30,081 bases of DNA, taken from IMG/VR virus record IMGVR_UViG_3300044846_000852, positions 1-30,081 of that record. One strand, written 5' to 3'. The DNA comes from a virus. Below, in pieces: positions 2 through 24,127 of this stretch. The notes under the pieces were generated by a model, which had not been told where the DNA came from, did not search any database, and was given only the letters and a program-made list of their open reading frames with translations. The first letter of the stretch is position 1. Each line of letters begins with the position of its first letter. The translations under genes were made by a program, and so were the position numbers.

Positions 2-1225
2 GAGTTGGCAGAGTCTCAAGACCCTAAGGTTCGTGCAGAAAACCGTAAGACTTTCTTGAAGGATATCGGAATGAATAGTGAAGGAGTACCTGATGAAGCT
101 TTGCTATCTGATGACTTCTACAAGAATCGCTATGCAGATATAACCAAGAACATTGAAAAGAGTTTTGGAGAAGGCGACTTCCGTCCTTCTATGGGTAATG
201 ACTTGATGTCTGGTTGGGAGCATTACGATGCTATCAACTATCAAGGTAATCCAATGTACGAGGATGTACCTGAAGAACCTGAAAATCCAGGAGGTATTCC
301 TGACCCTAACTTCCCAGAAAGAGGTAAGTATACTAGAATGCCTTATGACACCATGCAGGCCATTCCCGGAGCTTATGGATTAGCCCAAGCACAAGATATA
401 TTCCCTTATGCAATTCCTGAGGTTCAGTCTCCTTATATAAAGCCACAGACTTTAAACATTCAAAGTGAGTTGCAAGACATCGACAACATGCAGGCTTCTG
501 CTTTACGTGCAGGTGCTGATCCAAACATGACCTATGCAATGTCCTTGGATGCTAAGAACAAAGCATTCCAAACCAAGCAGAACTATGATGCTGAAGGTCG
601 TTGGAAAGCAGATGCTACTAACTTTGATGCTGAGTTAAAGACTAATGCTATGAACGCTGAACTCTTTAACAAGACCTACAATGATATGTATGCTACTGCT
701 AAGTCTAATCAATCTGAAGCTAAGTTAGCAGCAGTTACTGGTTTGGTAGGTAGTCGTGCTCAATACAATGCAGACGAAAACATGAAGGAGTTCTACCACA
801 ACAACTTTATGCCTTCTTACAATTGGGACCCTAAGACAAAGACTTGGTCTGTTGTTAATCCTGGTGATATAGTAGACTACGCAAACAAAAAGCAAAGTAC
901 AGGTACTACAGGTACTACTGGAAAAACAACCACTACTGGAACCACAGGGACTACCAGCACTACTGCCAGCACTACTACTACCGGTTCAGCGTCTGCTCAA
1001 CCTACTACAGCTAAAGGCACACCTATGGTTAGAGGTATTGCAGAACCTTCTGCACCCGGTACGTTCCCCTTTATGTCTACCCCTTCATTTGACGAGGTTG
1101 ATGGGATGGCTACTGATCCAACACAGAATTTAGGTACTAAGTTCCAAAAGAAAAACGGAGGTCTTCAACATGCCTACTTAAAAGCAGGCGGAAAGATTTA
1201 CCATTTCACATACCCTAAAAGTTAA
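2..1225 (+). CDS. crAss-like virion structural/cargo protein, C-terminal part (5' end outside window)
   Basis: The frame is open to the left edge. The first in-window start is a TTG at 5, preceded in frame by GAG, so the true start is probably upstream and this is a 3' fragment of about 407 codons. From the TTG, residues about 130-270 are Ala/Asn/Gln-rich and helical (NAELFNKTYNDMYATAKSNQ type pattern), which I associate with crAss-like virion proteins lying next to the giant genes. Residues about 299-335 form a Thr/Gly/Ser low-complexity linker, and a short Gly/Tyr-rich tail ends in FTYPKS. The next gene follows after 7 bases, so the two are probably co-transcribed and both act in the particle. 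No enzymatic motif or membrane segment is visible. Family assignment rests on pattern and position only; the exact virion role (tail, muzzle or cargo) cannot be decided. Confidence 0.6.
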   Translation, partial: ELAESQDPKVRAENRKTFLKDIGMNSEGVPDEALLSDDFYKNRYADITKNIEKSFGEGDFRPSMGNDLMSGWEHYDAINYQGNPMYEDVPEEPENPGGIPDPNFPERGKYTRMPYDTMQAIPGAYGLAQAQDIFPYAIPEVQSPYIKPQTLNIQSELQDIDNMQASALRAGADPNMTYAMSLDAKNKAFQTKQNYDAEGRWKADATNFDAELKTNAMNAELFNKTYNDMYATAKSNQSEAKLAAVTGLVGSRAQYNADENMKEFYHNNFMPSYNWDPKTKTWSVVNPGDIVDYANKKQSTGTTGTTGKTTTTGTTGTTSTTASTTTTGSASAQPTTAKGTPMVRGIAEPSAPGTFPFMSTPSFDEVDGMATDPTQNLGTKFQKKNGGLQHAYLKAGGKIYHFTYPKS

Positions 1226-1232
1226 CTAACTC

Positions 1233-3128: not shown

Positions 3129-3139
3129 AGTTAAAAACA

Positions 3140-9100: not shown

Positions 9101-9820
9101 GCTAAAAACAAAGCAGGTAAGTACCAGCACATTACAGGTAAACCAGAGGTTCAAGCAAAACGAGTAGCAGAAGCTTTTACTAACATCCGCTACAACGTAA
9201 ATAAGGATAACCTAGACTTAAATGGTCCATTCTCTTTGATCAAGATGCTGGGAAACCAGTTGGCTGTAATACCTTTTAACACTTACGAAGGTATGCTTAA
9301 GAGCGATGAGTTTGGTGCCAAAGTTAGTACAACCGTAAACCAAACCTTTGCTTTAGATAGTGAGTACACTATCCATACAGAAGACACACTTCTTCCAGAA
9401 CAAGCAGGTGTTGAGGTAACTGTGCATCCAACTGCAGATACTGTCTCTACTCAACCTACAGATGCTGTAGCTGATATAGAAAGAAGAAGACAAGAAGAGT
9501 TAGCAGAATTTGATGTTTTTGTAAAACGAGAAGATGGTAGACGACAAAAACCTCTTAGTAAAGATTTTATAGAAGATACAATTTCTAAAGTAAATGCTAA
9601 GTATGATGCCGAACTGACTGCTTTAGGACAACCTACTCAACCTGCTCCTCCTAAACGTTCTATGAGTGCTTTAAACGCTATGCGTGTAGGTGAAGTTGAG
9701 AAAGTAGAACAAGCAAGCGATTCTCCCTTCAGTGATGCTTTGTTAAACGAAGATGAGTTGAGAGCACAAGCAAAAGAATCTAAAGATGCTTGTAAAGGAG
9801 ACTTAGACGATTTAGCTTAA
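3140..9820 (+). CDS. giant crAss-like virion cargo protein, 2226 aa
   Basis: This is one of three giant proteins of the vRNAP block. The N-terminal 400 residues are helical and charged. A canonical EF-hand-type loop lies at residues 427-438 (D427, N429, N431, I434, D435, E438), with Tyr replacing the usual Gly at loop position 6. Hydrophobic or amphipathic segments follow at about 466-490 and 697-712 (SAIIGAGTAFG), separated by Gly/Leu-rich helices, as would suit a protein that meets a membrane during genome delivery. Residues about 740-1080 are again helical. From about 1380 to 2120 the sequence is mixed alpha/beta without a recognised motif. Residues about 2110-2226 contain an ERRRQEEL-type charged helix and an acidic, flexible end. 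The start ATG follows an A-rich leader (AGTTAAAAACA). I do not recognise a catalytic domain. A role as ejected cargo or ejection-channel protein is inferred from size and position beside the vRNAP. Confidence 0.6.
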   Translation: MPNDPYKIIPGKPLNTPEFRKAQDIIDTADAGIRATKFVDAVDQIQKFEADKAKLEQSVSSGITDILATKAAIDVAPAPSFGDLITAGAELDNMGGLGGTPESVLKKKKDLADFTKDPDIVRAATIYKDKIQNGTPSEIYKAINDLRSSYSAANYNLSKDDRAGFTKSYQDLVNYGKSVAMYKYAQDNVNKWMSEGSALPKNVTPKGLKSQKTTDKEILDMVAGFDGLNIGSKLYNNADLQVFRNTSDQELRSTTGSRALIAGLETQYNRAVSDVLRDKSGELSQKLNGLNNEIKRASTDEQRQALINQRIQVQQAAANIEGLSKKMSLFANEDNFLKANYKDLYEEKQNLKRREYYKNEVDPNETVIFGENSDPGEFFSRTAEMVGANLARTWSGLQSLTGFEKSAFFTGLAADRLAPLSYRMGKDLNKNYQIDESELTRDINGNIVTHDMPVYTDASGERQWSGEAIFEQVLPIVTDIAVTTLVSRATGGLARLAPMGALRWSNIGKTVGLTAEGMNAVRPYVSTFGSVTASTFPRFYAEERRNFKEGGAAGTAFLRAAAEGLTESILPDTDLFLGSRGSVGLLDNAFKRGAGYVGGKVDDLTGGSLGRLNTKLTAQTDLMLSMLPKGMVDRKVMAALLAPGLRKTLSAGTQESIEEVGSLVANYFIDKYAATQNFEYEQNNELTWGSVWETFVTSLGPSAIIGAGTAFGRRSMKEAKDSDGNTIRNSDGTIKYVTDWSTSALAHERANTARWNVANNPEIYKKLISQKKESGEYTAEEAIRQTAVVERMSQKLNEMLPSIKSIKNLNTMLDDPNTMVEYFNDKMFAEELLNVNIDELSDEDRKAYEASVNNTANKLQKTERIIDQYSNMTEIEKRAVIKKLYDDKVAEAQSDNSTIAELLTASFMLDPTDLERRKKDERFQFIADLNDRYQGALVNTLARRVANFKDTLLNNPENLTVRELLTMAEVFAPALDKLEQANMEVPFSPLAQTQQNAELTNIPGPQPLFAAPELAQLIRNELANRSTLTELQAIEQGAMNLNIPDVKREQEFDMALAELSEDELSKGFIEEDAHPEWSPAVRAVITGMLEAHMAEKTNTGNETSLEKKRKATLTNFYGVTLKETDPSAKIAQINKAIREKAALTPARQDFGGRRQPAPVPQRDDNFRGLAAVNPIVFDEFTGYRNSFEAIIRNTDLDESTIKEETAAFSVAVVQVLSGLTTFEDLYSALSGLYPSANLAFSKFFQEAAEGNFDVSTIDGLGLSPSMVSRIFYLAKVATVALTPYQKVENYIQSFYAIESIEELEAFDNAVHPEDPDRRLINNKMVRAKRKEIQTRLSFDMKKNQGFTSTKVGNKTYLFQIIPQPNNKKELRIVDPNTGKSLKRGKVVDTIVSQLITSGQLFDSHDFRYAMTESESIRYVTEDAQIDFLIDQFLGQIGGVYLNKASLDMLASADRPTAFNFSPYTSNKRKDGGMSVMSLEDLASNAELLDSAGLTIDDIVDFLQRHKTQKYVSRVGKAVADRIIKNEVIDGFGVSISDDVVRQLVSAYTSRFTVDPVSNATIDLNNLPFELRNDLVEVMRERNRGTMFEELIPSTDSALNFYDPIMLGMIGDVLDTPAFRNTLDPQYLQYLDEFYEDATNTIYPLNTYEDISGLFSEETTDVSTDQEIENPYDEVIDAAQKTFQVQVDNDYQISLSIIDTDIFDESLLGDPAVSFAYRVLHQYRETGMVGQDYNVLVGSMMDIYKLVLNAEDYQYLVNVKNSPKGTPVDGARIRQILSTEGLPMHNKGFFNYIITNPSTIGSGLGSVFVDSDKQILKFNQAGVVSSEGSPLISTLKKKTPAELALREKITSSPGQILFTKVVGLRSGKEAVVDASKTVGTIVLNTDESNRVITSAFGEYTLFKGGVYIQNNDSVYPFQAVILPSAPDGFVSALVDAFNNGTLPAGLPTELSENPKAFVEYVNALLYLSPKNNGGLILGTNSKGKITYKAKNKAGKYQHITGKPEVQAKRVAEAFTNIRYNVNKDNLDLNGPFSLIKMLGNQLAVIPFNTYEGMLKSDEFGAKVSTTVNQTFALDSEYTIHTEDTLLPEQAGVEVTVHPTADTVSTQPTDAVADIERRRQEELAEFDVFVKREDGRRQKPLSKDFIEDTISKVNAKYDAELTALGQPTQPAPPKRSMSALNAMRVGEVEKVEQASDSPFSDALLNEDELRAQAKESKDACKGDLDDLA
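4418..4453 (+). other. EF-hand-like calcium-binding loop in the 2226-aa giant protein
   Basis: The codons encode D-L-N-K-N-Y-Q-I-D-E-S-E (residues 427-438). Positions 1, 3, 5, 8, 9 and 12 of the loop match the EF-hand/dockerin calcium-loop consensus; position 6 is Tyr rather than Gly. It is a single loop, and a partner was not found nearby, so calcium binding is plausible but unproven. Confidence 0.45.
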
Positions 9821-9905: not shown

Positions 9906-12900
9906 ATGATTTGTCCAAATTTAAGTGATAATAAAGTACGTGCGGAGTTCACAAACCTTACTAATCTTGTAGGAGAAGACTTCGCTTACTTTGTATGGAA
10001 TAGGAATGGTGGCTATCCTCTAGACAAGAAGGTAGTTACAGTAAAGGGGAAAGAAACAGTAATTGATAATCCTTTATACAATCATTTCTTAGGCTCTTAC
10101 AATAACGTAAAGCAAGCAACTCTTGCTACTAGTATTTATTACAGTAAGAAGTTACAGAAGAGTAATCCTGGATTTGATAATCTTCCTATACAAGAACAGG
10201 CAAACATTATCCATGACTTTGTACAAGAAAATGAAACCTTAGAAAAAGCTTCTGAAAGAGTAATGAGATTCATTGCTCAAGGATTTAAAGCAGAACGTGT
10301 ACTAGATGAATCTATTAGAAGGGTAGCCTTTGACGAAGCACGTAAGATAGCTAACGGAAGACAATTACTTGACTCTTATGTTTGGTTTAAGACTTCGCCT
10401 CTTTCTTTGTTTGTAGATTTTGCAAACATGCAGAACAAAGAGGAAAGTTCTTTTGCTACTTGGACTAAGTCAGCAATTACTTTATACAAAGGATCTGATT
10501 ACTCAGATCTTTATCATGAAGGTTGGCACGAATTTACACAGCGATTCATGACTAAGGAACAAAGAATTGCTTTGTACCAGTCAGTTAAATCAAGACCGTC
10601 TACTGCTCTTATTAATGGTGTTCAAGTTCCTTACTATGCTTTGACTAGTCGTCAAATAGAAGAAGTACTTGCAGAAGAGTTTAGGTCTTTTTCTTTGAAT
10701 AAGTCTAATCCTGAAGTAGTTGTTCCTAGAATAGAAGCTCCTGTAAGAAACTTGTTTCAAAAGATCTGGGATTTCTTAACAAGTATATTTAATGCTTCAC
10801 CTCAAGAGATTGCTTCTAGACCTGCAGAAGAAGTACAAGACGGTATAACTGCTTTGTTTGAAAAACTCTACGCAGGTAAAATATATGAGTACACGCCTAG
10901 TGTTACTAACATTAGTGAGAAAGTATTAAACAGAAACAAATCTTTTCAGATTAACTATGTAGCTAAAGACGGAAGAACAATTCCATTTGAGTATAATGCT
11001 TTAGAAGCTGCAGAGATCTTTAGTGCTATTGACTTCTTCCTAAGTAAGGCAATGGATGACTTTAAGACAAGTGATGGTACTAAGATTAAGTTAGAAATGT
11101 CTTTCTTGTTGAACAAAGATCTTAAGCAAGTATACTTGCCTCAACTATATGAAAGTGCTAGAAACTCTATGTTACAGTATATCCGTGCATTAGAGGAAGA
11201 AGCAACTACTGCTGACGAGGCTACTGCAGAAGTACTTAAGCTACGTGTTAAAAACTTAAAAGGATTAGTAGTAAGAACTGCAGCAAACGATGGTTGGGCT
11301 ACTGTAGTAGAGAATCATCAGAGAGCATCTAAGGGTGGAGTATTTTACTTAGAAGAGAATAAGAAGTCTTACGATGTAGACAACCGAATAGATGACCAAG
11401 ATGAATCAGAGTTAAGAAGGGATAGTAGAAGTTTTGCTAACGCAGAAGACGTAGACCCTATGTCTCTAGCTTCTCCTGAAATTCTCCAGTTAATTAAGAT
11501 TCTTCCTGGCACATACTATAACTCTTTAGGAGAAATGGTTACTGCTACAGGTCCTTCATTCGGATTACCTCAGTCAGGTGATTTCTTAAGAAATAAAAAC
11601 TTAGTCTTAAGTAAAGTAAGTGGATCAATTTCTTACGAAGAGGCTATACAAAGATTAGAGAATACATTAGATATTGCTCCTCAGTTAAGACAATTAATTG
11701 ATAGACTTCCTCCTACTGATACTTCTTTAAGTCTTTCTCAGCTCGCACTTAAATCTCAGTTTATGCAGTTTGCTGCAATGCCTACGGTATATCCTTACGA
11801 GATCAAATCTTTGGTGCAAAATGAATTGTCTGCTGTAACTAAGAAGAAAGAAAAACGTCTGGAAACAAAAGCATTCTTAAACAATACTCTTTCTCAAGAC
11901 AAACTGATAGAGTTCTTTGACCAAGACTTTGTAAGTAATAGACTACGTAAGTACAGATTAATAGATCCTAAAGAAATAGATCTAGCAGTTTATGATAGGG
12001 CTAGTGTACTATCTGACTATAGAGCTTACACAGAGAATGGATTCACTTCTGATCAAGTTGCTTTTGAATTCTTAAATGATGCCTTTGGTATCAACTTAAT
12101 TGCAGACAAGAATCCTAACTTATTGTTTAATAAGCGTGGAGAATTACAGTTAGGAGTTAATCCTATCTTTACTACTACAAACCTAAGAAACCTTGTCAAG
12201 ATAGCTAACAATGCTTTGTTTAAGCTGAAGCTTCTTAGCCTTATAGATTCTTCTGGGGAAAATCTTAACACCCCTACTATCTCTTATAATCCACTGCTTG
12301 CTCTTTCTTCTGATATATCTAAACAGTTGAAAGAACAAATTAAAGAACTTAAGTCAGGAGAGAAGAACAAAGTAATTAAAGAATACTTTGAAAAACATTT
12401 TAAGGCAGCTACTCTCGACAACGAAAGAACTTCTGCTTTTTCTACTATAGAAAAACTTTATAATATCTCTAACTCTGCTTCTTATTTAAATCCAGAAGGA
12501 AACTTAGAGTACGCAGTAAGAGAGTGGAATCACTTGTTAGACTCAGCATCTAAGATTAACAATGTAAAAAACATCTACGAACTAGAAGGACACTTAAACC
12601 CAGAGTCTAATAACTTCCTTGAGTATAGTTTAGTTATGAATGCTATGTTCCGTAAAGACGATGGAACTAGGAGGACTACTAACTCAGGCGAAGGAGTATA
12701 CTTAGAGGTTTTAAACATGTCAGGCTTTACTATTGGTAAAACTAGAGGAGATAAGACAACTAACTTATCTGGTGACGGAAAACTCCTACAAGACTTCCTT
12801 TCTTTTATCCAAGACGCTACCATAGAAAACATGAGGGTAGGAGCAAAGTCTAGTTCTTTTGCTACACGTTTGTCTGGAAACAGAGGAGAAAGGGAATATT

Positions 12901-15900
12901 TTAAATATGATCAGTATCAGTTCAAGAATCAAGCTGTAGTATCCTCTGACTTTATCAGACAGATGCAGAACTACTTGAACTTTGAGGCTATGCGTATGTT
13001 TGACGACAGAGCTAAGTCTACGAGAAAAGAAAAAGCTGGATCTGAGTTTATCATACTAGACACTATACTTCCACAAGACATTAAAGATAAAGTAAAAGAA
13101 GCAGTTAATGAGGCTCCTAACAAAGAAGCTCTTAAGTTGACTCTTAGGGGTATGTTTGGTTTGAGTGCTAATAGTCTCTATGGTCCATTTAAAGATGCTG
13201 TTACAGCATACTTTAAGAGTTCTGCTGATGTATTGAAAGTTTCTTTTAATGAAATTTTAAGTAAGGGAGAGTCTAAGAATCTTGCAAAAGAATTTTATCG
13301 TATCCACAAAAAGCAAGATGGGACTGCCTATACATCAGAGGAGATAGATTCTGTTCTTCTTTACTTTACTACTAATTATTTTGCTCACCAAGTAGAAGTG
13401 ATGCACTTGTTAATTGGTGATCCTTCTAATTATAAGATTAAAAATAATGAATGGAGGGAAGCATTCAAACGTCTTGGTCCTGCAATTTCTCCAGGTAAAC
13501 AACCTAGATTAGACCTACAAGACATTAACTCTTGGAATACAGATCCATCTCTTAGTAGAGGACTTGAAGAAGTACAAAGAGGAAAAGGAAAAGGTAGACC
13601 TTATGATACTAATTTAAACTACGTACAGTATGAGGATATCAAAACCTTTGAGTATTTAGATGAAGTTGCTAAGTCTTCTATCAAAGAAAGTATTAGACAA
13701 AACTACTTAGATGCTTTGGTAGCAGCTAAGGGTCCCTTGAGTCCAGAGGAACTTGCAAGAGAGTCTGCTCAAATAGACTCAAATACTGATGCAGTACTAG
13801 TACAAGACGAAGAAGCGAATGCTCAGGCTTACGCAGGCTTAGACTTTATAAGATACTACTTAAATTCTATTGGAGAATGGCTTCCAGAACTAGAAGAAGC
13901 TTATAAACATGAGGTAAAGGTATTACAGGCAATTAAAAACTATAGACAATCTAACTCTACTGAAGATCTTGCTAAAGTAAAAGAGTTGGTTAGACAGAGT
14001 AATCTTGGAATACTGACTTCACTTAAGCTAGGATACTATGGATCACCTACAGATTACAACAAGTACAATGTACTAGGTAAGTATTCTGTGTTCCCATTAA
14101 GTCCTTCTATGGTATTTGATACAGACTTAGAGAATCTTATGTTTGACTACCTAGACAAAGGAGTAGACATGTCTACTTTCTCTAGTGGTAATAAGATGTC
14201 TCTTCCTGTAAATGAAATGGCTTTTTACAATTCTGTTGAGTTGAATGGTAAAAAGATTCCAGTACCTAATGCAAATGGAGCTTTAGAAGTAACTAAGGTA
14301 GATCCTAATCTTATTGTAAGACTTCCAATAGATGGTCTCCGTAGACAACAGTATATTGCTCCTAAGTTTAAGGGAGAAGCAACCTTGTCTACTCAGATGG
14401 TTAAGTTAATTTTCTCTAACTTTTTTGTATCAGGTAAGATTAACCCTAAGTATGCACACATTCAAGATAAGATAGAAGCTTTACAAGAGGCGTTTATTAA
14501 TAACATTAAAACTATTGTAGAGGTAGAGAAAGCAAAAATTTATTCTAAGATTGGAGCAACTGTTAACGCAGAAGGAAAACTGACTAGCATTAACACAAAA
14601 GACTTTACTAACTGGTTACATAGAGAGTTTGATAAGAAAGAAGTACCTAGTTCTGTCTATGACTTTATTAGACCTTCTAATAACAATCAGTTTGTATTTT
14701 CATTGGATGCAGGAGTACAAAGATCTCTCATAGACCAAATCATCTCTAGTGCTTTGTCTAAGCGTGTATTGAAGCCTAAGATGTTTGGTGAGGCTTATAT
14801 TCAGTTGGCTTCCTCAGGATTTAACAAACTAGGTACCCGTAAACAAAAGCCTACTGTTGATGAGATTAAGACTATATCAAAAGAATTCAATGTAAGCGGT
14901 TTAAGAGACTATCGCATTGAGGATGGTGTAACTCAACCTGCTGATGTTTTGATTCCATTTAACGCAAAGAAACATGCTCCCTTGCTTAATTTAGTTTGGA
15001 ACGGAGAAGTTATTGGAACACTAGATAGACTTAATGACGCACTAGATGATCCTCAATGGGTTAAGACACACTCAGCTAAGATAACTCTTGTAGGTGTACG
15101 TATTCCTGTACAAGGATTAAACTCTATGGAGTACTTTAGAGTACGTAGATTCTTAGCAACTGTAGGTGGTCCTGTAATGGTTGTACCTCCTTCAATCGTA
15201 ACTAAGTCTGGATCTGACTTTGACATAGATAAATTGTTTATGTACGAGCCTGAACTTGACGAGAACGGAGAGTTAATAGTTAACGCTGAACTAGCAAGTG
15301 CAGAATACAGAGCTAAGATTATTGAAAACATCCTAGACAAAAACGTTTACTTAAAAGGTAAGGCACTTTTTCTAGATAACTTGTTTGATTCAGAAAGCTT
15401 TAGAGAAGCAGGCTTAGTATCTCAAGAGATTGATTCTATTAAGAAAATGATCTCTGACTTAAAAGGTATTAAGACTTCTGGAGAAGAAGACGACATAGCT
15501 TACTTCAAAGAGAACATAGGTCCTTTGAACATGAAGTTAGGTATTGCTATTGAAAGATTTAAAACTTTACGTAACCAAGATCCTAATGTTGTTCAGTTTC
15601 TAGAAAACTTAGCACAGTACAAAGAAGTTCTTTCTGAGATGGAAAACATTTCAGAGAAACTGATAAAGGGTTCAGCTTCTAACAATATGATCTCGGTAAT
15701 ATCTGGTGTATTGTCTGAAGCTTCTATTTACTCAGAGTTTACAAAACCCAACGTTAATAAGATTCTTCCTGAGATTGCTAGAGAGTATCAAGCACTGAAG
15801 GGCAGAGATAGTAAGATTGACTCTAGTGCAATGTTCTTGATTGAGACTTCAATAAGAATCTTTACAGAAAACAACTTGGGTAAGAAGTCTTTAGGTGTAG

Positions 15901-18281
15901 ATGCAAAGACAAACGCTTTACATAAATTGTTCCAACAAGTAGGTTTGAGATTTGCTTCTAATCCACAGAATATAGACATTAACTCTTTCTACCTACTTAA
16001 GTCAAACAAGAATCCTAACACAGGTGAGATTGAGTTAGGGGGTCTTTACGATGCTGATGGAGTTAACTTAATCTCTGATGTAATCAACGAGTTTATTAAT
16101 GGTCACGTAGATATCGAGAAGGAAGATTGGATTAACTTCTTTAACGCTGATAGAGAACGTACTCCTTTAATTCTTCAAATGGTACTTAACGGTACTCCTG
16201 TAAAGGACGCTATCTTACTAGTAAACCAACCTATCATTCAACACTATATTAGATCTAGTAAGATTACTAAAGTAGGAAAAGCATTGGGTCAAAAGTCAGC
16301 AAGTTTATTTAAAGACTATATTACCCCTGCAATGAATTACTTAGACATTACTCCAGTAACTGTAGATGGTATAGTAGACGAGGCTGCTACTGTAGAAAAA
16401 GTACTTAGCATGCCTTCTATCAATAAGGCATTGTCTGCAAAAAACTTTAACAAAGAAAACTTTGCTCCTAATCCTTACGTAAGAAGATTTGCTTATGATA
16501 AAATTAAAGCAAATAGAAATACTCCTGAAGGTCAATCTGCACTAGAAGCTCAGTTAGCATTTGCTGCTCAGTATTATGTTGTTAAAGAACAGAATAAAAT
16601 CTTGTTAGAGTTAACTAGTAATATTGACTTTAACACTTCTTCATACCGTATCAATACAGAGTTTTATGCAACTACTCAAAACATTAAAGTAGCTGCTCCT
16701 AACTTTGCAGCTGAAGGGTTTAACAGAATACTAGAATCAAGTGTAGTAGCTCCTTTTAACATCCTTGAGGACACCGAAAAACTTATCGACCAAGTTTGGG
16801 ACTTCTTCTCTCTAGAAGAGATCAAAGAACACCTGTACAACGTTAAAGAATCTTACGGTAAATACTGGGGTAGAGATGAGTCTGTTACCAACTACAATCA
16901 ATTGGTTAACTCTTTTATGTTGTCTTTTATTCAGAATATGCCAAGCCTTAAGTCTTTTCAAGATAGTTATGGTATTAGTTCTGGTTTATTTGATTTAAAG
17001 TCTGCTAATAACTTAAGAACTAGATTCGATAAACTGTTCTCAAGTACAGAAGACAAGGCTCTTAAGAGATTTGCTGAGAATAACTTAATCTTAAACAACT
17101 TTAGTCCTATAAGTATACCTGATAGTAACTACTTCTATCCTGGTATGATTACAAATGAAAAGGACGTAGATACAGTTAATGCTGCTCAAAAAGCTTTCTC
17201 TGATGGTTTGAATCATCCTAATCCAGAAGTATCTAAGTTCTTTAGGGACTTAGCTAATGGTGTACTTGTATCTCAAGGTTTTAATATTAAGTATCGCTCA
17301 ATCCAAAACTTTATTCCTTTAGAGGCAAAGAGCGACTTAATGATAGAGTTGTCTATTGCCCTTAAGAAAATTAAGATAGGCTTAAGTAAGCCAGTAGAAG
17401 AGATGACAGAAAAAGACAGTGAGGACGCTATGGCATTTATGAGTTTGCTTGAAAGTACTACCTCTATGCATGCTAATCTTTATTGGCCTTCTAAGGATAA
17501 CGATTTCATTCCTACTGCTTATATGAAAGCCTTTCCTAACTTCAAAGAAGAGGAAGCAAAGGCTGTTACTACTGAGAAGAAAAACTCAAGAGTAACAAAC
17601 CAAGATGACTTGGACGAGGCAAAACTTTATGCTCAGCAGTCTGACAATGATGTTCCTTCTATGGATGAACTAGACGAAGAACAATTAATAACTAGGAGAC
17701 TAATAGCTAAAGGCAAAACTGTTCCTGCTAAAACTCCTGCAACTTCTGTATCTACTAATGTTAGTCCTGCAAGTAATAAGATAAACATCTATGCAGGAGG
17801 TAAAGGAGAGAATGCTGAGTTAAGTAATTTTGCAGTAAGGCCTTTTTCTGAAACTTGGGATCTTTCACCACTAGGTATGGACTCGGAAACGTTAACTTTT
17901 AATACGGTAGAGGGGGCATTCCAGGCTACTAAGATTTTGTATAGTGCCGATCTAAAAAATTATGATTTGTTACCACAGTTTCAAAAATCATCTGGAGCAC
18001 AAGCAAAAGCATTAGGTCAAAAAATTAAAGGATTGGATACAGAAGCATGGGATTCAAACTCTTCTGTAGTAATGAAAGATTTAATTAAAAAGTCTTTTGA
18101 ACAAAATCCAGATGCTCTTGCTAAACTTATTGCCACAGGTAATGCCACCCTTACTCACACACAAGATAAAAGTAAGTGGGCTAAAGAATTTCCTAGAATC
18201 CTGATGGAAGTAAGGGCTGAGTTAAGAGACAATAACCTAGAAGGATTTGATTTTGAAGTGACTAAGTGTATCGTAGATTGA
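9906..18281 (+). CDS. crAss-like virion RNA polymerase with N-terminal zincin and C-terminal NADAR domain, 2791 aa
   Basis: This is the DNA-dependent RNA polymerase of the two-barrel type expected to be packaged and ejected with the genome. Residues 1771-1775 are DFDID within SGSDFDIDKLF, matching the catalytic magnesium-binding motif DxDxD of crAss-like vRNAPs and of cellular polymerases (DFDGD). Residues 1732-1736 (RIPVQ), 39 residues upstream, correspond to the conserved Arg/Pro motif that precedes that loop in cellular enzymes. The N-terminus (CPNLS...GEDFAYFVWNRNGG) resembles large polyvalent phage proteins. A zincin motif HEGWH (His204, Glu205, His208) is followed by candidate third ligands Glu257/258 and by IWDFLTSIF. 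A linker rich in Pro, Thr, Ser and Ala (about 2602-2625) leads to a NADAR domain (2626-2773). The Cellulophaga phi14:2 vRNAP is shorter, about 2180 residues from memory, so the extra modules account for part of the excess. It has its own promoter and ends in TGA. Confidence 0.88.
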   Translation: MICPNLSDNKVRAEFTNLTNLVGEDFAYFVWNRNGGYPLDKKVVTVKGKETVIDNPLYNHFLGSYNNVKQATLATSIYYSKKLQKSNPGFDNLPIQEQANIIHDFVQENETLEKASERVMRFIAQGFKAERVLDESIRRVAFDEARKIANGRQLLDSYVWFKTSPLSLFVDFANMQNKEESSFATWTKSAITLYKGSDYSDLYHEGWHEFTQRFMTKEQRIALYQSVKSRPSTALINGVQVPYYALTSRQIEEVLAEEFRSFSLNKSNPEVVVPRIEAPVRNLFQKIWDFLTSIFNASPQEIASRPAEEVQDGITALFEKLYAGKIYEYTPSVTNISEKVLNRNKSFQINYVAKDGRTIPFEYNALEAAEIFSAIDFFLSKAMDDFKTSDGTKIKLEMSFLLNKDLKQVYLPQLYESARNSMLQYIRALEEEATTADEATAEVLKLRVKNLKGLVVRTAANDGWATVVENHQRASKGGVFYLEENKKSYDVDNRIDDQDESELRRDSRSFANAEDVDPMSLASPEILQLIKILPGTYYNSLGEMVTATGPSFGLPQSGDFLRNKNLVLSKVSGSISYEEAIQRLENTLDIAPQLRQLIDRLPPTDTSLSLSQLALKSQFMQFAAMPTVYPYEIKSLVQNELSAVTKKKEKRLETKAFLNNTLSQDKLIEFFDQDFVSNRLRKYRLIDPKEIDLAVYDRASVLSDYRAYTENGFTSDQVAFEFLNDAFGINLIADKNPNLLFNKRGELQLGVNPIFTTTNLRNLVKIANNALFKLKLLSLIDSSGENLNTPTISYNPLLALSSDISKQLKEQIKELKSGEKNKVIKEYFEKHFKAATLDNERTSAFSTIEKLYNISNSASYLNPEGNLEYAVREWNHLLDSASKINNVKNIYELEGHLNPESNNFLEYSLVMNAMFRKDDGTRRTTNSGEGVYLEVLNMSGFTIGKTRGDKTTNLSGDGKLLQDFLSFIQDATIENMRVGAKSSSFATRLSGNRGEREYFKYDQYQFKNQAVVSSDFIRQMQNYLNFEAMRMFDDRAKSTRKEKAGSEFIILDTILPQDIKDKVKEAVNEAPNKEALKLTLRGMFGLSANSLYGPFKDAVTAYFKSSADVLKVSFNEILSKGESKNLAKEFYRIHKKQDGTAYTSEEIDSVLLYFTTNYFAHQVEVMHLLIGDPSNYKIKNNEWREAFKRLGPAISPGKQPRLDLQDINSWNTDPSLSRGLEEVQRGKGKGRPYDTNLNYVQYEDIKTFEYLDEVAKSSIKESIRQNYLDALVAAKGPLSPEELARESAQIDSNTDAVLVQDEEANAQAYAGLDFIRYYLNSIGEWLPELEEAYKHEVKVLQAIKNYRQSNSTEDLAKVKELVRQSNLGILTSLKLGYYGSPTDYNKYNVLGKYSVFPLSPSMVFDTDLENLMFDYLDKGVDMSTFSSGNKMSLPVNEMAFYNSVELNGKKIPVPNANGALEVTKVDPNLIVRLPIDGLRRQQYIAPKFKGEATLSTQMVKLIFSNFFVSGKINPKYAHIQDKIEALQEAFINNIKTIVEVEKAKIYSKIGATVNAEGKLTSINTKDFTNWLHREFDKKEVPSSVYDFIRPSNNNQFVFSLDAGVQRSLIDQIISSALSKRVLKPKMFGEAYIQLASSGFNKLGTRKQKPTVDEIKTISKEFNVSGLRDYRIEDGVTQPADVLIPFNAKKHAPLLNLVWNGEVIGTLDRLNDALDDPQWVKTHSAKITLVGVRIPVQGLNSMEYFRVRRFLATVGGPVMVVPPSIVTKSGSDFDIDKLFMYEPELDENGELIVNAELASAEYRAKIIENILDKNVYLKGKALFLDNLFDSESFREAGLVSQEIDSIKKMISDLKGIKTSGEEDDIAYFKENIGPLNMKLGIAIERFKTLRNQDPNVVQFLENLAQYKEVLSEMENISEKLIKGSASNNMISVISGVLSEASIYSEFTKPNVNKILPEIAREYQALKGRDSKIDSSAMFLIETSIRIFTENNLGKKSLGVDAKTNALHKLFQQVGLRFASNPQNIDINSFYLLKSNKNPNTGEIELGGLYDADGVNLISDVINEFINGHVDIEKEDWINFFNADRERTPLILQMVLNGTPVKDAILLVNQPIIQHYIRSSKITKVGKALGQKSASLFKDYITPAMNYLDITPVTVDGIVDEAATVEKVLSMPSINKALSAKNFNKENFAPNPYVRRFAYDKIKANRNTPEGQSALEAQLAFAAQYYVVKEQNKILLELTSNIDFNTSSYRINTEFYATTQNIKVAAPNFAAEGFNRILESSVVAPFNILEDTEKLIDQVWDFFSLEEIKEHLYNVKESYGKYWGRDESVTNYNQLVNSFMLSFIQNMPSLKSFQDSYGISSGLFDLKSANNLRTRFDKLFSSTEDKALKRFAENNLILNNFSPISIPDSNYFYPGMITNEKDVDTVNAAQKAFSDGLNHPNPEVSKFFRDLANGVLVSQGFNIKYRSIQNFIPLEAKSDLMIELSIALKKIKIGLSKPVEEMTEKDSEDAMAFMSLLESTTSMHANLYWPSKDNDFIPTAYMKAFPNFKEEEAKAVTTEKKNSRVTNQDDLDEAKLYAQQSDNDVPSMDELDEEQLITRRLIAKGKTVPAKTPATSVSTNVSPASNKINIYAGGKGENAELSNFAVRPFSETWDLSPLGMDSETLTFNTVEGAFQATKILYSADLKNYDLLPQFQKSSGAQAKALGQKIKGLDTEAWDSNSSVVMKDLIKKSFEQNPDALAKLIATGNATLTHTQDKSKWAKEFPRILMEVRAELRDNNLEGFDFEVTKCIVD
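10515..10679 (+). other. zincin-like metallopeptidase module in the vRNAP N-terminal region
   Basis: HEGWH at residues 204-208 fits the HExxH zinc-binding signature, preceded by an ITLYKGSDYSDLY strand-turn pattern common before this motif in polyvalent phage proteins. EEVLAEEF at 252-259 supplies a third acidic ligand about 54 residues on, as in gluzincins. A tryptophan/phenylalanine-rich helix (KIWDFLTSIF) follows. Cleavage of virion proteins or host targets is possible; no substrate can be named. Confidence 0.6.
17781..18224 (+). other. NADAR (YbiA/DUF1768-like) domain fused to vRNAP C-terminus
   Basis: Residues 2626-2773 carry the family landmarks in order: YAGGKGENAELSNF near the start, TVEGAFQATK with the conserved Glu2669 (aligning with TSEHYFQAQK of E. 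coli YbiA), AKALGQKI, a Trp, VMKDLIKKSFEQNPDA, LIATGNATL, then DKSKW and LMEVRAEL. NADAR enzymes are N-glycosidases acting on ADP-ribose-linked or related ribosyl compounds, and some remove ADP-ribose from guanine in DNA. All landmark blocks are present, so the domain is probably active. A low-complexity linker separates it from the polymerase, consistent with a separately acquired module. The substrate is not deducible from sequence. Confidence 0.8.
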
Positions 18282-18328: not shown

Positions 18329-21300
18329 ATGCCAAACGGTTGTGTAATAAAATATCCTAATCCCGTAACTGGGATGAATCAAACTTCAGTACTCGCCTAC
18401 ACTCTTTCTCAGATGGGGTATAGCACTGAAGAGTCGATAAACTTAGTCAAAAGAGGCAGTACCTATTCTAAGAAGGATGGGTACAATGCCTGGCCTAAAC
18501 CTATTAACAGACCTGAAGCACGCTTTGGAAACTTTATAGAAATAGATTCAGACAATCTTGTAGCTAATTTAGGACTAGACTCTGTACTTAAACCTTCACA
18601 GGTTAGTTATATGAGAGCTGCTCAAGACTTGTTTGAGGATGTACAGGTAAGAGTAGACGCTCCTATTAACTTAAAACTGTTAATGGAGTTAGGAAACTAT
18701 GTTAAGAAAGGAGGAGAAGCTTCTCTTAAAATAGAAATAGTTAATCCTGAAGCACCATTACTCCAAAGGATGTATAAAGTATATCCTGTTCCTGCTACCC
18801 CACTTAACCGTGAGTATTTATTTAGCTTCATTGAGACAGAGATATTCAGCAAGAACGTATCTATTGGAAAAGAAACAAGACTTGATTTCTTAAAACCTTA
18901 TATAGATTTCTCAGAGCCTGATATCTATGATACAATGGCTAAAATGCTAAATGATCCTCAGACACCTGCACATGAAAAGTACTTGATTAAGAAACTACTT
19001 CCTATGATGGACTTAGTTCCGACTATTACTTTTGACTTCTTTACAGGCTCAGACATTCTTCAAGTAGAAAAGATTCCCGCAGGACAATACAATAGAGAGT
19101 TTAATAATATAAAATTAAACGTATTTGGACTTAAGAATGGGGATATGGCTAGTGCTAGGAGACTCATCCTACACGAAGTACTACACTCTGTACTCTCTTC
19201 TGCTATCGACAATCCTATTAGCGAGATAGACAAGAAACTAGTCAATGCCTTAAAGCCAGTATTAGCCTATTATAGACAGAAATATTCTAGCGAAAAGTTT
19301 ACAAATGAATATTACGGTCTACAAGATTTACACGAGTTCGTGTCTGAGTTCTTCACTAATCCCGAGTTTAGGGACTTACTAGAATCTAACGACAGTAATT
19401 GGTTTTTAAAAACAATTGATGCTATCTGGAAATTCTTTACAGGCAAACTTCTATTAAATAGTAACGTAAACAGTATAGAGAACATAGAGCAAATACTAGA
19501 AGATATCTTTAACGATATTCTATACGCCCAAGAAATCAATACGTCTCTTACTTATACCAGCACTTCGAAGTTTGAGTCTCCTCTAAGCTTCAATCAAATG
19601 CTTGAGATAGATAAGTTTACTGAGAATAACTCTGAACTTTTATCTGAATTCTCAGCTAACCTAGATAGATTACTAGCAGAAGATAATTTGCTTAACTGGT
19701 CTAAAATTATAGATCAAGCAGAGTTCCTAGGAGTAAACGTAAACAGTGTACTAAGAACAAAAGATACTTTCGTAGAGATATCTCCTGCTGAAGCAAAAGA
19801 GTCTTTTAAATCTATGGTTACATTCTTCCACGAAACTGCTAAGTATCTAAGAAGTATACGTAACTCTCTAGATAAGTTAGCTGCAGATCCTAACATAACA
19901 GCTGACCAAGTATTTAGACAGGCTTATCATGCTAAGGAACTAGGAGAGCAATACATAAACTTTGTAGAGAAGTACAGAGAAGTAATGGGTAACATAGGTA
20001 TAGACACTATTTTAGGAACTCAACTTCTTAATATAAAAAGTACTGCAGACTCCCTGAAGGAGGCTTATTTGAATAATGCAACTGAAGCCTTGGCTATTAA
20101 ATTAGCAGATGAGTTTGCTCCACAAACTAAAGATGCTCAGAAACGTATTCTAGAAAACATTGAGAGATTTAAAGTTAGCTTAGCGAGTGCACAAAGTTTG
20201 GGTAACGCTAAACTTATAAAACTTACTGAAGACAGGATTAAGAACGAAGAAGCTCGATTACAGAGTCTTGCTACAAAGTCTAATATCATTACTGCTCTTA
20301 AGGGACAGATTAAAGACATAGGTAACTTCTCTTTATTCTTAGAGTCAGCAGGTCTCTCAGGAAACGTAATTACTGGTACAGTAGGTGGTATGATTGCTAA
20401 CCAATTTGACTCTGCTAATGTTAAGGCACAGTCTATGGAGGTTAAACTTAAGAGATTAGCTGATGAACTACAAAACCACTTGAAGAGTAAGGGTGTAGGA
20501 GTAAACACTTCTTTTGATTTTGAGAATGTCTTTGGAAGATTTCTTAAAAAGACTGAAGTAGTTGAAATGAAGAGTGGTAAGATTTCTAAGAGAGACACTC
20601 TAGTCCTACTTAGTGAGATGGATGAGGTTCGCTACAACAACGACTTGATTAAACTAAAACAAGAATTAAGAGATCTCAAACAAACTAAAGTACAAGACTC
20701 TCAGGTAAAAGATCTTATTAAGGCTAAGGAAGCGCAGATAAGAAACTTTAAACAACAGTACGAAGAACAGCCTTACCAAGAAGTTTATTACCAAATCCAG
20801 AATATGTTAAGCTCAGAAGCAAGAGAAGCTAGAGACTTAATACTTCAAGAGATGGATAAGATTCAAGTAGGTAGTTTGAATGAAGAGAACTCTGAAGAAC
20901 AGTTAGATAAACTAGAAGATCTTAAAGAAGACTTGGATCGTTTGGAGTCTGATTACGATAAAAACAAAAACTTAAAAGACGAAGAAGGTTTAAGAATCGC
21001 AGCTAATATAAGAGAGTGGAAGAAGAGTAGAACTGCTGCTCAACTCTACACTTACAATATCACTAAAGAAAATCAGGAACTCTTCGATAACCAACTTACG
21101 GCTAAGAAGAATGCTTACGATAAAGCTGTATCAGACTACGAGCAGTCTTTGTCTGAGAAGGCAGATCCAGAAACTCTAGATTATAAAAAACAAACTGCAG
21201 AGTATTATAGAAAACAGTTTGAACTTTGGAAAGCTAACAACTGTGTTAGGAAGATTAGTCCAGAATTCTACAAAAATAGAAAGCAAATAACTGATTCTAT

Positions 21301-24127
21301 TGCTGCTATTCAGGGTAGATACCCTCTCCCTGACGGTGTACGTAAGATGGATGTGGTATGGGGAGAATTGTTTGACGTACTTAAAGGCTATAAAAATAGT
21401 GATAACTTTTATGAAGGCTCTAAGATTTCTTCTCCTAACGAAGACGGAACCCCTTCTAACATCTCTGCTATCGTAAGAAGCTTGGAGGAAGAGATTGAAG
21501 ATATTAAAACAGTCTACAAGAAAGAGAACAAGATGTCTAAGGAAGATCAAGACGCTCTTACTGGGTTGTTTGCGAGCTTCTCAGACATTCAAGAGAAGGT
21601 TTATACTCCAGACTACATAAAAGAATATACAAGTCGCTTAAACGCTGTTAAAACAAGTCTTATAGCAAAAGACTCTACAAGATACCAAGATCAATCAGAC
21701 GACTCACTTCTTAAACTTGATGCCGAGAAAGAACTTAGAAAGACAGAATGGTACAAACAAAACCACAAGAAAGTAAGTGTATGGGACTCGGTAAACTCTA
21801 TTTGGACAAATACTGATGAGCCTTTGTACTTCTGGACTGCTACTGAACCTACTGATAAGACTTTAATTAGCGAAACTTCTCCTTCTTTTAGATGGAATAC
21901 AATTGCAGTTAATCCTATCTATGTAAGACCAGAAATTAAAAATGTAAGATACAGTAAGCGTGTTCCCTTGCGTACAGATAAAACAGAATATAGGAATAAG
22001 GAGTACGACAAACTAGATACTAAAGAAAAAGAAATCTTAAAGAAGGTAACTGATATCTACTTAGAACTACAGAGTGGTACTCCTATGAATCTTAAAAAAG
22101 GATTAGAGTTACCTAGTGTAGTAATGGATGCTACTGAAAGATCTCTTAAAGGGACAAACTTAGGTACACTTAAATCTAAGATATCTTCTACAGCACAATC
22201 TATCTGGGACAAAGCAACCTTTGAAGATGACGAAGAGGTACAAAGAGATACTGCTGGAACAGTTATGCAAAAGGTAAATAAAAGACTTTACTTAAAGTAT
22301 AACAGACCTATCCCTGCAGATAAGATGAGCTTAAACATATTCAATAGCATTGCTATGTATGGAGCAGATCTTATTAGATTCAAAGAAGCTTATGCAGTAG
22401 TTCCTTACATCTACGGTATTCAAGACGTATTAAATAAGTCTATGCCTGGAAGTAAGATTGAAAAAATGATTAGCAACTTGTTTGAACGTAAATTACAGGG
22501 TAAGAGTCGTAAGTTTATAGTTAATAATAAAGCAGGAAGACTTGTAGAGAAAGTAGTAGACACAGCTTTAGCAGCTAACTCACCTATTACTTTGGCTTTC
22601 CGACTTCCTTCAAGTGTAAAAAACTTTATGGCAGGTTCTGCTAACGTATTTATTCAAGCAGAAATGTATGGTTTAAGTCGTAAGGAAATCTTTAAAGCTA
22701 TGGGTAAAAACTCTGTACACATAGCAGACTTGTTTCAGTCAGAAGTAGAGGATGGTAGGGACTCTGAGTATATCTCAAAGATGCGCTACTTTAACGTAAT
22801 GCCTGACGATCAACTTTCAGAAACAGGCAGAAAAGTATTTATATCTAAGCTAGGCAAATACCGTAAGTACAATCCTTTTAACTTTCTTGCGTTCTTTAGA
22901 ACATTTGGAGAATTTGAAATGAGGAGTGCAGTAGCTGAAGCTCTTTCTGAAAAATTTCTTATTCCTCTTACAGATAAACCTAATGGAGTACCATTGTTTG
23001 AGGCTTACGACTTTAAGGACGGAGTACTTGTTCCTAAAGAAAGTATTATTGATAAAGAAGGTTTTGAGAAAATAGAACAATACTACAGAGGAAAACTTAA
23101 CTTTATTAACGCAGCTATACAAGGTGCTTACGGAGCTTTAGATAGAGGGGAGTACTCAAGATATACCTTAGGTCGTATTATTGGTAATATGAAGGGATGG
23201 GTTGCTTATCAGGGTATGAGAAGATTTAAAACAACTAGAAGCATTAATCCTAGATCAGGAGAAGAGTTTCAGGGATTTTATACTACTGCTATACAGGCAA
23301 TTAAACTTCTTTATCAAACAAACTTTTCTCTTCCTGCAACTAAAAACCTAATGACTCCCCAAGAGAGAGCAGAGGTAGAAGGTGCAGCAATAGACATGTT
23401 AGTACTGGCTGTGATTATGGGAGTGTCTGCTGTTCTTAATAGCATAAGATATGATGATGAGGACGAAGAAGATATGTACATTGTTTATTTCTTCCTTTAC
23501 AACTTGTTGTTGATTGAAGACGAATTAAACAGTTTGAACCCTGTATTCAGTCCTTTGTCTATCTATCACTCTCGATTTGAAAACAACGTAGACGGACAGA
23601 ACTTTGCTCAATATTATTTGAATAGAAACGTTCTTCTTCCTTTTGCAGGAGCTACAGATGCACTTAAGTTAACTATGGAAATGGTTAATCCATTTGATGA
23701 TGTGAGTCCTTTTGACGAGTATGTACCTCGTAGTAAGAGTGGCAAGATTTCTAACCCAAAGAGATATCCACCAGATCCAACCCTTAAAGGAGATACAGAG
23801 ATCTCAGCAAGAATACAAAAGCTATTTGGACTAAACGCTTCTATCAATTTCTTCTTAAATCCTGAATACTTATTTAGAAAATATGAGAGGTATAACCCTA
23901 AGTGGTACGTAAGTAGTCTAGATGCAGATTTAAAGTCAGAAAAAAGATCTATTAACTCTATAGACAAACAAATTAAATCTATAGAAAGGCAATATGATTA
24001 CATAGATGATCCAGACACTAAAAGAAATCTTATGGATAAAGTTAGTGACCTTCAGAAACAAAGAGAAGAGTCAGGAGAAAGACAGTCTAGTTTAACAGAT
24101 ATATATTCAGAGACTGGGAGGAGGTAA
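18329..24127 (+). CDS. giant crAss-like virion protein with zincin motif, coiled coils and C-terminal membrane segments, 1932 aa
   Basis: This third giant protein follows the vRNAP after 47 bases. A zincin motif HEVLH (His282, Glu283, His286) is followed by LHEFVSEFF at 335-342, offering Glu336 or Glu340 as third ligand, and then by AIWKFFTGK; the order mirrors the zincin module of the vRNAP. Residues about 600-1000 are rich in Lys, Glu, Leu and Gln with heptad character, predicting long coiled coils. Residues about 1330-1640 are alpha/beta, with a Pro/Ser segment (PITLAFRLPSS). Two hydrophobic stretches at about 1686-1707 (LVLAVIMGVSAVL) and 1715-1729 (YIVYFFLYNLLLI), separated by an acidic DDEDEED turn, look like a membrane hairpin. 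The tail (about 1860-1932) is a charged helix. A virion protein ejected with the vRNAP and inserting in the host envelope is a reasonable inference. The peptidase could process co-packaged proteins; this is unproven. Confidence 0.65.
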   Translation: MPNGCVIKYPNPVTGMNQTSVLAYTLSQMGYSTEESINLVKRGSTYSKKDGYNAWPKPINRPEARFGNFIEIDSDNLVANLGLDSVLKPSQVSYMRAAQDLFEDVQVRVDAPINLKLLMELGNYVKKGGEASLKIEIVNPEAPLLQRMYKVYPVPATPLNREYLFSFIETEIFSKNVSIGKETRLDFLKPYIDFSEPDIYDTMAKMLNDPQTPAHEKYLIKKLLPMMDLVPTITFDFFTGSDILQVEKIPAGQYNREFNNIKLNVFGLKNGDMASARRLILHEVLHSVLSSAIDNPISEIDKKLVNALKPVLAYYRQKYSSEKFTNEYYGLQDLHEFVSEFFTNPEFRDLLESNDSNWFLKTIDAIWKFFTGKLLLNSNVNSIENIEQILEDIFNDILYAQEINTSLTYTSTSKFESPLSFNQMLEIDKFTENNSELLSEFSANLDRLLAEDNLLNWSKIIDQAEFLGVNVNSVLRTKDTFVEISPAEAKESFKSMVTFFHETAKYLRSIRNSLDKLAADPNITADQVFRQAYHAKELGEQYINFVEKYREVMGNIGIDTILGTQLLNIKSTADSLKEAYLNNATEALAIKLADEFAPQTKDAQKRILENIERFKVSLASAQSLGNAKLIKLTEDRIKNEEARLQSLATKSNIITALKGQIKDIGNFSLFLESAGLSGNVITGTVGGMIANQFDSANVKAQSMEVKLKRLADELQNHLKSKGVGVNTSFDFENVFGRFLKKTEVVEMKSGKISKRDTLVLLSEMDEVRYNNDLIKLKQELRDLKQTKVQDSQVKDLIKAKEAQIRNFKQQYEEQPYQEVYYQIQNMLSSEAREARDLILQEMDKIQVGSLNEENSEEQLDKLEDLKEDLDRLESDYDKNKNLKDEEGLRIAANIREWKKSRTAAQLYTYNITKENQELFDNQLTAKKNAYDKAVSDYEQSLSEKADPETLDYKKQTAEYYRKQFELWKANNCVRKISPEFYKNRKQITDSIAAIQGRYPLPDGVRKMDVVWGELFDVLKGYKNSDNFYEGSKISSPNEDGTPSNISAIVRSLEEEIEDIKTVYKKENKMSKEDQDALTGLFASFSDIQEKVYTPDYIKEYTSRLNAVKTSLIAKDSTRYQDQSDDSLLKLDAEKELRKTEWYKQNHKKVSVWDSVNSIWTNTDEPLYFWTATEPTDKTLISETSPSFRWNTIAVNPIYVRPEIKNVRYSKRVPLRTDKTEYRNKEYDKLDTKEKEILKKVTDIYLELQSGTPMNLKKGLELPSVVMDATERSLKGTNLGTLKSKISSTAQSIWDKATFEDDEEVQRDTAGTVMQKVNKRLYLKYNRPIPADKMSLNIFNSIAMYGADLIRFKEAYAVVPYIYGIQDVLNKSMPGSKIEKMISNLFERKLQGKSRKFIVNNKAGRLVEKVVDTALAANSPITLAFRLPSSVKNFMAGSANVFIQAEMYGLSRKEIFKAMGKNSVHIADLFQSEVEDGRDSEYISKMRYFNVMPDDQLSETGRKVFISKLGKYRKYNPFNFLAFFRTFGEFEMRSAVAEALSEKFLIPLTDKPNGVPLFEAYDFKDGVLVPKESIIDKEGFEKIEQYYRGKLNFINAAIQGAYGALDRGEYSRYTLGRIIGNMKGWVAYQGMRRFKTTRSINPRSGEEFQGFYTTAIQAIKLLYQTNFSLPATKNLMTPQERAEVEGAAIDMLVLAVIMGVSAVLNSIRYDDEDEEDMYIVYFFLYNLLLIEDELNSLNPVFSPLSIYHSRFENNVDGQNFAQYYLNRNVLLPFAGATDALKLTMEMVNPFDDVSPFDEYVPRSKSGKISNPKRYPPDPTLKGDTEISARIQKLFGLNASINFFLNPEYLFRKYERYNPKWYVSSLDADLKSEKRSINSIDKQIKSIERQYDYIDDPDTKRNLMDKVSDLQKQREESGERQSSLTDIYSETGRR

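Follow-up and report, generated by a model that had tools for sequence, protein, structure and literature searches.

Every NADAR enzyme tested in PMC11125620 acted on guanosine-ADP-ribose (guanosine-ADPr), a Glu and a Lys of the NADAR active site matter (PMC11543638), and the residue on the last strand is Glu in YbiA-type enzymes, Asp in DarT1-linked ones and His in phage gp30.3 (PMC11125620). In the human gut, crAss-type phages are the most abundant viruses (PMC10172136); three proteins of crAss001, gp47, gp49 and gp50, were found in its virions by mass spectrometry (MS), and this cargo is thought to exit before the DNA (PMC10172136). The virion RNA polymerases (vRNAPs) of N4-like phages are fused to zincin peptidases and ART domains (PMC5512222). 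The stretch analysed here, 30,081 nucleotides of viral DNA (IMG/VR record IMGVR_UViG_3300044846_000852, positions 1 to 30,081; hereafter the window), carries an open reading frame (ORF) of 2791 amino acids (aa) in which a predicted crAss-like vRNAP ends in a NADAR domain. We consider it reasonably probable that this domain is a NADAR-superfamily ADP-ribosyl N-glycosidase carried in the particle, accessory to the injected RNA polymerase (RNAP), which would erase the ADP-ribose adducts of host defence. The giant ORF and its landmarks are as follows, in window coordinates:

9906 to 18281, plus strand: the giant ORF (2791 aa), a crAss-like vRNAP with a C-terminal NADAR domain and a Cys tail, one unbroken ORF
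9912 to 9914, plus strand: Cys3, the N-terminal junction Cys
10515 to 10529, plus strand: HEGWH, a zincin-like motif at vRNAP residues 204-208 (motif only)
15216 to 15230, plus strand: DFDID, the catalytic Asp motif of the RNAP, residues 1771-1775
17703 to 17780, plus strand: low-complexity linker from the RNAP core to NADAR, residues about 2600-2625
17781 to 18224, plus strand: NADAR domain, residues 2626-2773, placed by Pfam, AlphaFold2, Foldseek and VIA
17910 to 17912, plus strand: catalytic Glu2669, at the position of E43 in the P. nicotianae NADAR and E88 in that of E. coli C7
17931 to 17933, plus strand: Lys2676, at the K50/K95 position
18156 to 18158, plus strand: His2751, on the last strand of the fold
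18267 to 18269, plus strand: Cys2788, the C-terminal junction Cys, in the tail FEVTKCIVD, 3' of NADAR

The identity of the domain is indicated by several comparisons. PF08719 (NADAR) matches with 54.4 bits (E 2.3e-14, cut-off 35.1) and is the sole Pfam family to match the 2791-aa protein at E<=1; phrog_1017 matches at E 1.4e-19. An AlphaFold2 model built on a 46-row alignment (pLDDT 89.7, pTM 0.86) gave two Foldseek matches only against the PDB at E<=0.001, NADAR 8bau and YbiA 2b3w, and VIA Z scores of 17.0 to 8bau (an ADP-ribose-bound NADAR), 14.4 to 2b3w and 8.9 to the Geobacter lovleyi NADAR 8bat, the next row standing at 2.4. Profile match and predicted fold confirmed that residues about 2626-2773 form a NADAR domain. 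The initial annotation had read NADAR blocks in the last 165 residues of the vRNAP, with Glu2669 as catalytic residue, and every motif that it quoted is present. Across 47 aligned copies (46 NADARs and that of the gut phage cr126_1, omitting the partial NADARs of loci L060, L064, L065 and L070 and the recoded cr130_1, cr131_1 and cr272_1), Glu2669, Lys2676, Thr2750 and His2751 are invariant, and the position of Trp2758 holds Trp in 40. His2751 aligns with the His of T4 gp30.3, and the YbiA Glu was put by the aligner in an adjacent gap column; because of this match on the last strand, we class the domain with the phage, gp30.3-like His type. All 47 copies have Thr-His where the YbiA subfamily has its Glu, and His instead of the Asp of DarT1-linked antitoxins.

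The polymerase label comes from DFDID, whose three Asp are invariant across 26 aligned RNAP cores, and from tblastn matches to the annotated RNAPs of crAss001 (27.6%) and crAss002 (22.8%); phmmer with the whole 2791-aa protein found no match among PDB sequences. The ORF is the second of three giant ORFs in succession (2226, 2791 and 1932 aa), of which the third matches phi14:2 g065 and crAss001 gp49 and the first is the giant ORF that precedes the vRNAP. With motif, homology and syntenic cargo partners, it has the make-up of a crAss-like vRNAP. A zincin role for HEGWH would follow by analogy with the polyvalent proteins (PMC5512222). An assembly error or spurious fusion can be rejected: the same fused ORF recurs in contigs from other metagenomes (L001 at 99%, L002 and L003 at 100% identity), and related copies are under purifying selection. 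In NADAR-lacking relatives, homology to the window vRNAP stops at the linker, and the terminal tail is retained in one of them, L004 (FEVTKCRED). Since this tail follows the NADAR in the window, the domain lies within a full-length ORF.

The fusion recurs widely, as the survey of crAss-like vRNAPs proposed in the initial annotation bore out. A search for the domain in viral contigs yielded 57 loci, and NADAR and an RNAP core share one ORF in 56 ORFs (redundant loci counted; profiles built for this analysis), with 41 distinct full-length NADARs among them, so that a one-off event is rejected. The NADAR lies on the N side of the core in 7 ORFs and on the C side in 49. Thirteen more NADAR ORFs lack an RNAP profile match: L012, L017, L025 and L056 are truncated at an end, L040, L044 and L066 have the DFDxD motif, that of L053 is the ORF preceding the RNAP, and the ORFs of L015, L016, L060, L064 and L070 are either recoded, frame-broken or incomplete. 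Gut relatives with the fusion are cr126_1 (Steigviridae) and cr130_1, cr131_1 and cr272_1 (Oafivirinae). The contig L162 was binned in a Bacilli metagenome-assembled genome (MAG); here the NADAR sits in a 2134-aa ORF without DFDxD (883-7287), both ends of which match crAss001 gp47, with the NADAR inserted between them near the C-terminus; the next gene matches gp49. The constant feature is delivery, not linkage to the polymerase core.

The fusion is also optional. Among loci gathered by the RNAP core, 3 of 80 vRNAPs carry NADAR and none of these loci has it elsewhere; the 80 were taken by score from the 475 relatives that the first 600 pattern matches contained, 17 of their RNAP ORFs are cut at one end, and the sample leans to the window's type because it consists of the highest-scoring relatives. 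NADAR as a universal part of the polymerase is therefore rejected. In 34 whole or long crAss records, picked with and without the fusion, PF08719 occurs once each in 15 and is absent from 19. All 15 matches lie inside giant cargo genes (the three TAG-recoded ones by annotation), and a stand-alone PF08719 gene was found in none of the 34, a search for PF08719 only, which a divergent PF08010-type gene could escape. Two strict peptide patterns run against 84,980 species genomes returned only four relatives: the phage-like contigs L161 and L162, and, on the chromosomes of two MAGs from a single Flavobacteriales order, adenosine deaminases fused to NADAR (L163 5002-6507 and L164 4999-6507), with NADARs 46% identical to the window's. 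Other relatives of the deaminase, among the matches listed, showed similarity to the deaminase part alone.

On these sequences, NADAR is a mobile cassette among vRNAPs. When 41 proteins were compared pairwise (820 pairs), the NADARs had a median identity of 57% and the RNAP cores one of 27%; for the 742 pairs whose cores fall below 40%, the two identities are uncorrelated (r 0.003). L021 and L023 have NADARs 97% identical in protein and 95% in DNA, RNAP cores at 26% and flanks without clear similarity; the NADARs of L038, on the N side, and L039, on the C side, are 92% identical. By contrast, the vRNAPs of L010 and L011 agree at 99% of their first 2580 residues (2553/2580) and their NADARs at only 63% (89/142 aligned): the cassette has been swapped in place. 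The ratio of non-synonymous to synonymous substitution rates (dN/dS) was 0.15-0.35 in 9 of 10 hand-chosen pairs. Because identities are mismatched, one swap occurred in place and dN/dS is low, we conclude that the module is exchanged and kept functional.

NADAR shares the tail slot with other modules. We compared 31 stretches of NADAR-bearing vRNAPs (the L054 stretch ends ahead of its NADAR, so the domain is in 30 and PF08719 matches 29) with 31 tails of NADAR-lacking ones. An AlkB-type 2-oxoglutarate-Fe(II) oxygenase occurs in 8 of the former and 3 of the latter, ART-PolyVal in 3 and 2, and helicase AAA_30 in 3 and 3; HD_4 and Zeta-toxin match once each in the NADAR-lacking set, and PF08010 also matches 9 of the 31 NADAR-bearing stretches. 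The same slot pattern is that of the polyvalent proteins (Iyer et al. 2017, PMC5512222).

How could such a domain act? Virion delivery of the NADAR-vRNAP, as the initial annotation had assumed, is well supported by homology to the cargo of crAss001 found by MS and to phi14:2 g065-g067, whose annotation derives from tandem MS. The NADAR would arrive first, since it sits inside cargo thought to exit before the DNA: we propose that the first proteins to reach the cell bring it in, ahead of any phage gene expression, and that it strips the ADP-ribose adducts that host defence is making at entry. A counter-defence role is likely. The likeliest substrate would be ADP-ribosylated guanine in nucleic acid and the next, soluble ADP-ribose-type signals. 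The module passes between unrelated vRNAPs and is retained in some lineages only, as expected of an arms-race gene. We infer packaging and ejection from homology, and only infer catalysis by the window copy, counter-defence and substrate.

Several observations weigh against this reading. The virion data come from relatives, phi14:2 and crAss001, and neither genome has a PF08719 match. T4 gp30.3, which shares the His, cleared guanosine-ADPr in vitro but gave no rescue from DarT1 in cells (PMC11125620), and DarT was found in 6 of 299 genomes of the order of one Flavobacteriales MAG, an order that may not include the phage's host. The sole cellular copies found by the strict patterns are joined to an adenosine deaminase, not to DarT, and could point to small nucleotides. 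NADAR is not part of core polymerase function, since only three of 80 vRNAPs have it. In the tails, co-occurrence of AlkB with NADAR is not significant (p 0.18), and we considered and dropped it as proof of a base-repair kit; SLOG (cpYpsA) is equally frequent with and without NADAR (5/31 each). As to selection on the window copy itself, the tenth of the hand-chosen pairs, L001 and L002 (identical to the window), has five differences with dN/dS 1.08, too close to inform. Thus, while enzyme domain and fusion stand, and delivery stands by homology, the further proposal of the initial annotation that DarT-modified DNA is the target is left unproven: the site is of the His type, gp30.3 did not rescue, and DarT is rare in that order. 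DarT (PF14487) was also looked for in 16 phage records with NADAR, fragments among them, and was found in none; a phage-carried NADAR-DarT pair is rejected on that count.

The strongest rival is that the NADAR removes soluble ADP-ribose-derived signals or toxins of host immunity, as in Thoeris-like systems, and not nucleic-acid adducts. Iyer et al. 2022 (PMC9503650) make this case for the majority of NADAR, Macro and SLOG domains in phages, the cellular deaminase fusions fit it, and SLOG occurs in vRNAP tails, in L041 in one tail with NADAR. On the other side, the NADARs tested in PMC11125620 all act on guanosine-ADPr, a phage NADAR degrading such a signal is not shown in the literature text covered here, and SLOG is just as common in tails without NADAR. 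We regard this rival, although it is the main one, as rather unlikely overall; on balance our preference goes to ADP-ribosylated guanine in nucleic acid.

That the NADAR serves the polymerase, for instance through removal of modified template bases or 5' ends in the course of transcription, is quite improbable. Fusion to RNAP in 56 ORFs would speak for it, but the NADAR may lie on either side of the core, it sits in gp47-type cargo in L162, 77 of the 80 core-collected vRNAPs lack it, and the linker is of low complexity; the two first points also weaken the earlier suggestion that the enzyme protects the template ahead of the polymerase. Slightly less probable still is a YbiA-like N-glycosidase that would serve phage metabolism by acting on nucleotide intermediates, those of the riboflavin pathway or others: TIGR02464 does match, but at 43.7 bits it stays below its cut-off of 73.7, His stands where YbiA has Glu, and a sporadic, swapped, virion-borne module would be an odd location for a metabolic enzyme. 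An inert structural or recombination-driven passenger, which would suit a mobile and sporadic module, is the least credible, since the catalytic residues are invariant and related copies show purifying selection.

A second pattern emerged at the ends of the cargo proteins, where cysteines are placed with great regularity. The neighbours of the vRNAP that matter here are:

3140 to 9820, plus strand: upstream cargo protein, 2226 aa, assigned to the gp47 / g067 type from its position and its Cys pattern
9791 to 9793, plus strand: Cys2218, the sole Cys of the upstream cargo
18329 to 24127, plus strand: downstream cargo protein, 1932 aa, of the gp49 / g065 type
18341 to 18343, plus strand: Cys5 of the downstream cargo, whose other Cys is Cys972 and which has no C-terminal Cys
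19172 to 19186, plus strand: HEVLH at residue 282 of the downstream cargo, an HExxH zincin-like motif

In the window, the vRNAP has only two Cys, at 3 and 2788, and the one Cys of the upstream cargo is at 2218 of 2226. For counts across loci, those more than 90% identical were collapsed to 102 non-redundant ones, and L008, L013-L017, L060, L064, L067 and L070 (frame-broken, recoded, fragments or cut) were omitted. A Cys lies within the last 9 residues of the vRNAP in 96 of 96 closed ends and within the first 10 residues of the last cargo in 96 of 96, while the last 9 residues of that cargo have none (0/63). At its N-terminus the vRNAP carries a Cys in 59 of 65 cases. In the upstream protein, a Cys is present at the C-terminus in 51 of 62 and at the N-terminus in 1 of 14. 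Internal Cys are rare in the vRNAP (median 0; 0.12 per 1000 residues). Controls lack this placement: among 62 other annotated crAss genes, the first 10 residues hold a Cys in none and the last 9 in three, and among 18 other ORFs of the loci the figures are 1 and 0; these supersede an earlier background (66/201 ORFs) that still contained cargo proteins.

Six vRNAPs lack the N-terminal Cys: L038 and L053 have unclear starts, and L054, L134, L137 and L139 open with sequence homologous to the upstream cargo elsewhere. In these four, upstream cargo and vRNAP form one ORF of 4269-4798 aa and the junction Cys is lost; because the ORF opens with upstream-cargo homology, the N-terminal junction must have been fused away. 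Eleven upstream proteins deviate: L048, L069, L071, L077 and L081 have their sole Cys at -15 to -24 from the C-terminus, and the others are L026 (a 158-aa ORF), L038, L053, L054, L137 and L139. Of the 16 small ORFs that lie between RNAP and last cargo, 13 bear a Cys at each end, one of these 13 (202 aa, in L099) being doubtful; the exceptions are L088 (start doubtful) and two in L055. Such both-end ORFs, at 18541-19527 in L005 and downstream of the vRNAP in L021, L035, L041, L050 and L143, look like added links.

Reference genomes follow the same rule. In phi14:2, g067 has Cys at -1 only, the vRNAP g066 at 3 and -2 only, and g065 at 3 only. In crAss001, gp47 has Cys at -3 only, and fits despite lying on the opposite strand, gp50 at 5, -1079 and -9, and gp49 at 5 only. 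In crAss002, gp32 has its terminal Cys at -2, and gp33 (L156 16243-28980) fits only if it starts at Met33 (MSC...); because Met33 restores the rule, the annotation probably places the start 32 residues too far upstream. The gut Suoliviridae cr53_1, cr114_1, cr130_1, cr131_1 and cr272_1 keep terminal Cys at the junctions seen, while their polymerase-bearing proteins or parts hold 4 to 33 Cys; the cr126_1 vRNAP has 7. Since these proteins are not Cys-poor inside, the constant feature is end position, not Cys depletion.

Overall, every end of an injected giant (gp47, gp50 and gp49 types) that meets a neighbour bears one Cys, and most of these proteins have few others. This pattern suggests that consecutive cargo proteins are coupled head to tail by disulfides, and such a chain is the best fit to it. 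Metal bridging could also account for the terminal Cys, as could a remnant of a split polyprotein; a ring closed within the vRNAP was set aside, as it fails to explain why the upstream protein has a C-terminal Cys only and why the downstream one lacks it. We put forward, as an evenly balanced proposition, that the NADAR-polymerase sits in the middle of a disulfide-joined cargo train, a string that would be drawn through the tail and separate in the reducing cytosol, accessories being loaded at the coupling tails or as small links with Cys at both ends. Disulfides are mentioned in the crAss001 structural atlas for portal-vertex and tail proteins, and no report on cargo Cys was found, within the part of the text covered, in the literature on crAss or crAss001 disulfides, ejection or cargo cysteines. 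This coupling may be a larger discovery than the NADAR fusion.

If the proposed role of the NADAR is right, crAss-type phages equip an injected polymerase with swappable repair or counter-defence enzymes, and host defence is answered ahead of any phage gene expression. The vRNAP tails, with their AlkB-type, SLOG, ART and helicase modules, would then be a set to mine for counter-defences, while the terminal-Cys rule offers a direct and cheap test of giant-cargo order and ejection, left open by the crAss001 structural atlas.

The comparison with known systems brings out what is particular to this locus. A NADAR-vRNAP fusion was not described in the literature found on NADAR with DarT, phage, crAss-like, virion or AdfN, as far as its text was covered and with subscription papers outside the search. 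A phage anti-DarT NADAR goes by the name AdfN, which has no occurrence in the literature found on AdfN/DarTG1. The paper with both 'NADAR' and 'crAss-like' (PMC10607447) places the NADAR gene, in the part cited here, in another phage group; Yutin et al. 2021 (PMC7886860) has no occurrence of NADAR, DUF1768 or YbiA, and the cr126_1 protein already carries a DUF1768 label in GenBank. Iyer et al. 2022 (PMC9503650) share with us the idea of a NADAR entering with the virion, alongside Macro and Nudix domains, but call phage NADARs typically stand-alone, and 'crass' occurs 0 times in the text. N4-like vRNAPs (PMC5512222) likewise combine a virion RNAP with conflict enzyme domains and zincin motifs, the word NADAR being absent from the main text of that paper. 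N4 lacks Cys altogether in its vRNAP and in the neighbouring gp51 and gp52, unlike crAss-like vRNAPs and their partners. The N4 RNAP is a T7-like polymerase, unrelated to the crAss type. The crAss-type vRNAPs phi14:2 g066 and crAss001 gp50 have the same cargo partners and terminal Cys as the window, from which they differ in lacking the NADAR. E. coli YbiA (2b3w) and the P. nicotianae NADAR (8bau) share fold, Glu and Lys with the window's NADAR, but are cellular proteins with Glu on the last strand. DarT1-linked antitoxins (8bat, E. coli C7) have superfamily, Glu and Lys in common with it, but have Asp in place of His, a partner DarT that was not detected in the 16 phage records, and a weaker structural match. 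T4 gp30.3 and the stand-alone phage NADARs (PF08010 / PF08719) agree with it in family, Glu, Lys and last-strand His; gp30.3 is a separate gene, whereas the NADAR of the window is built into a predicted injected RNA polymerase.

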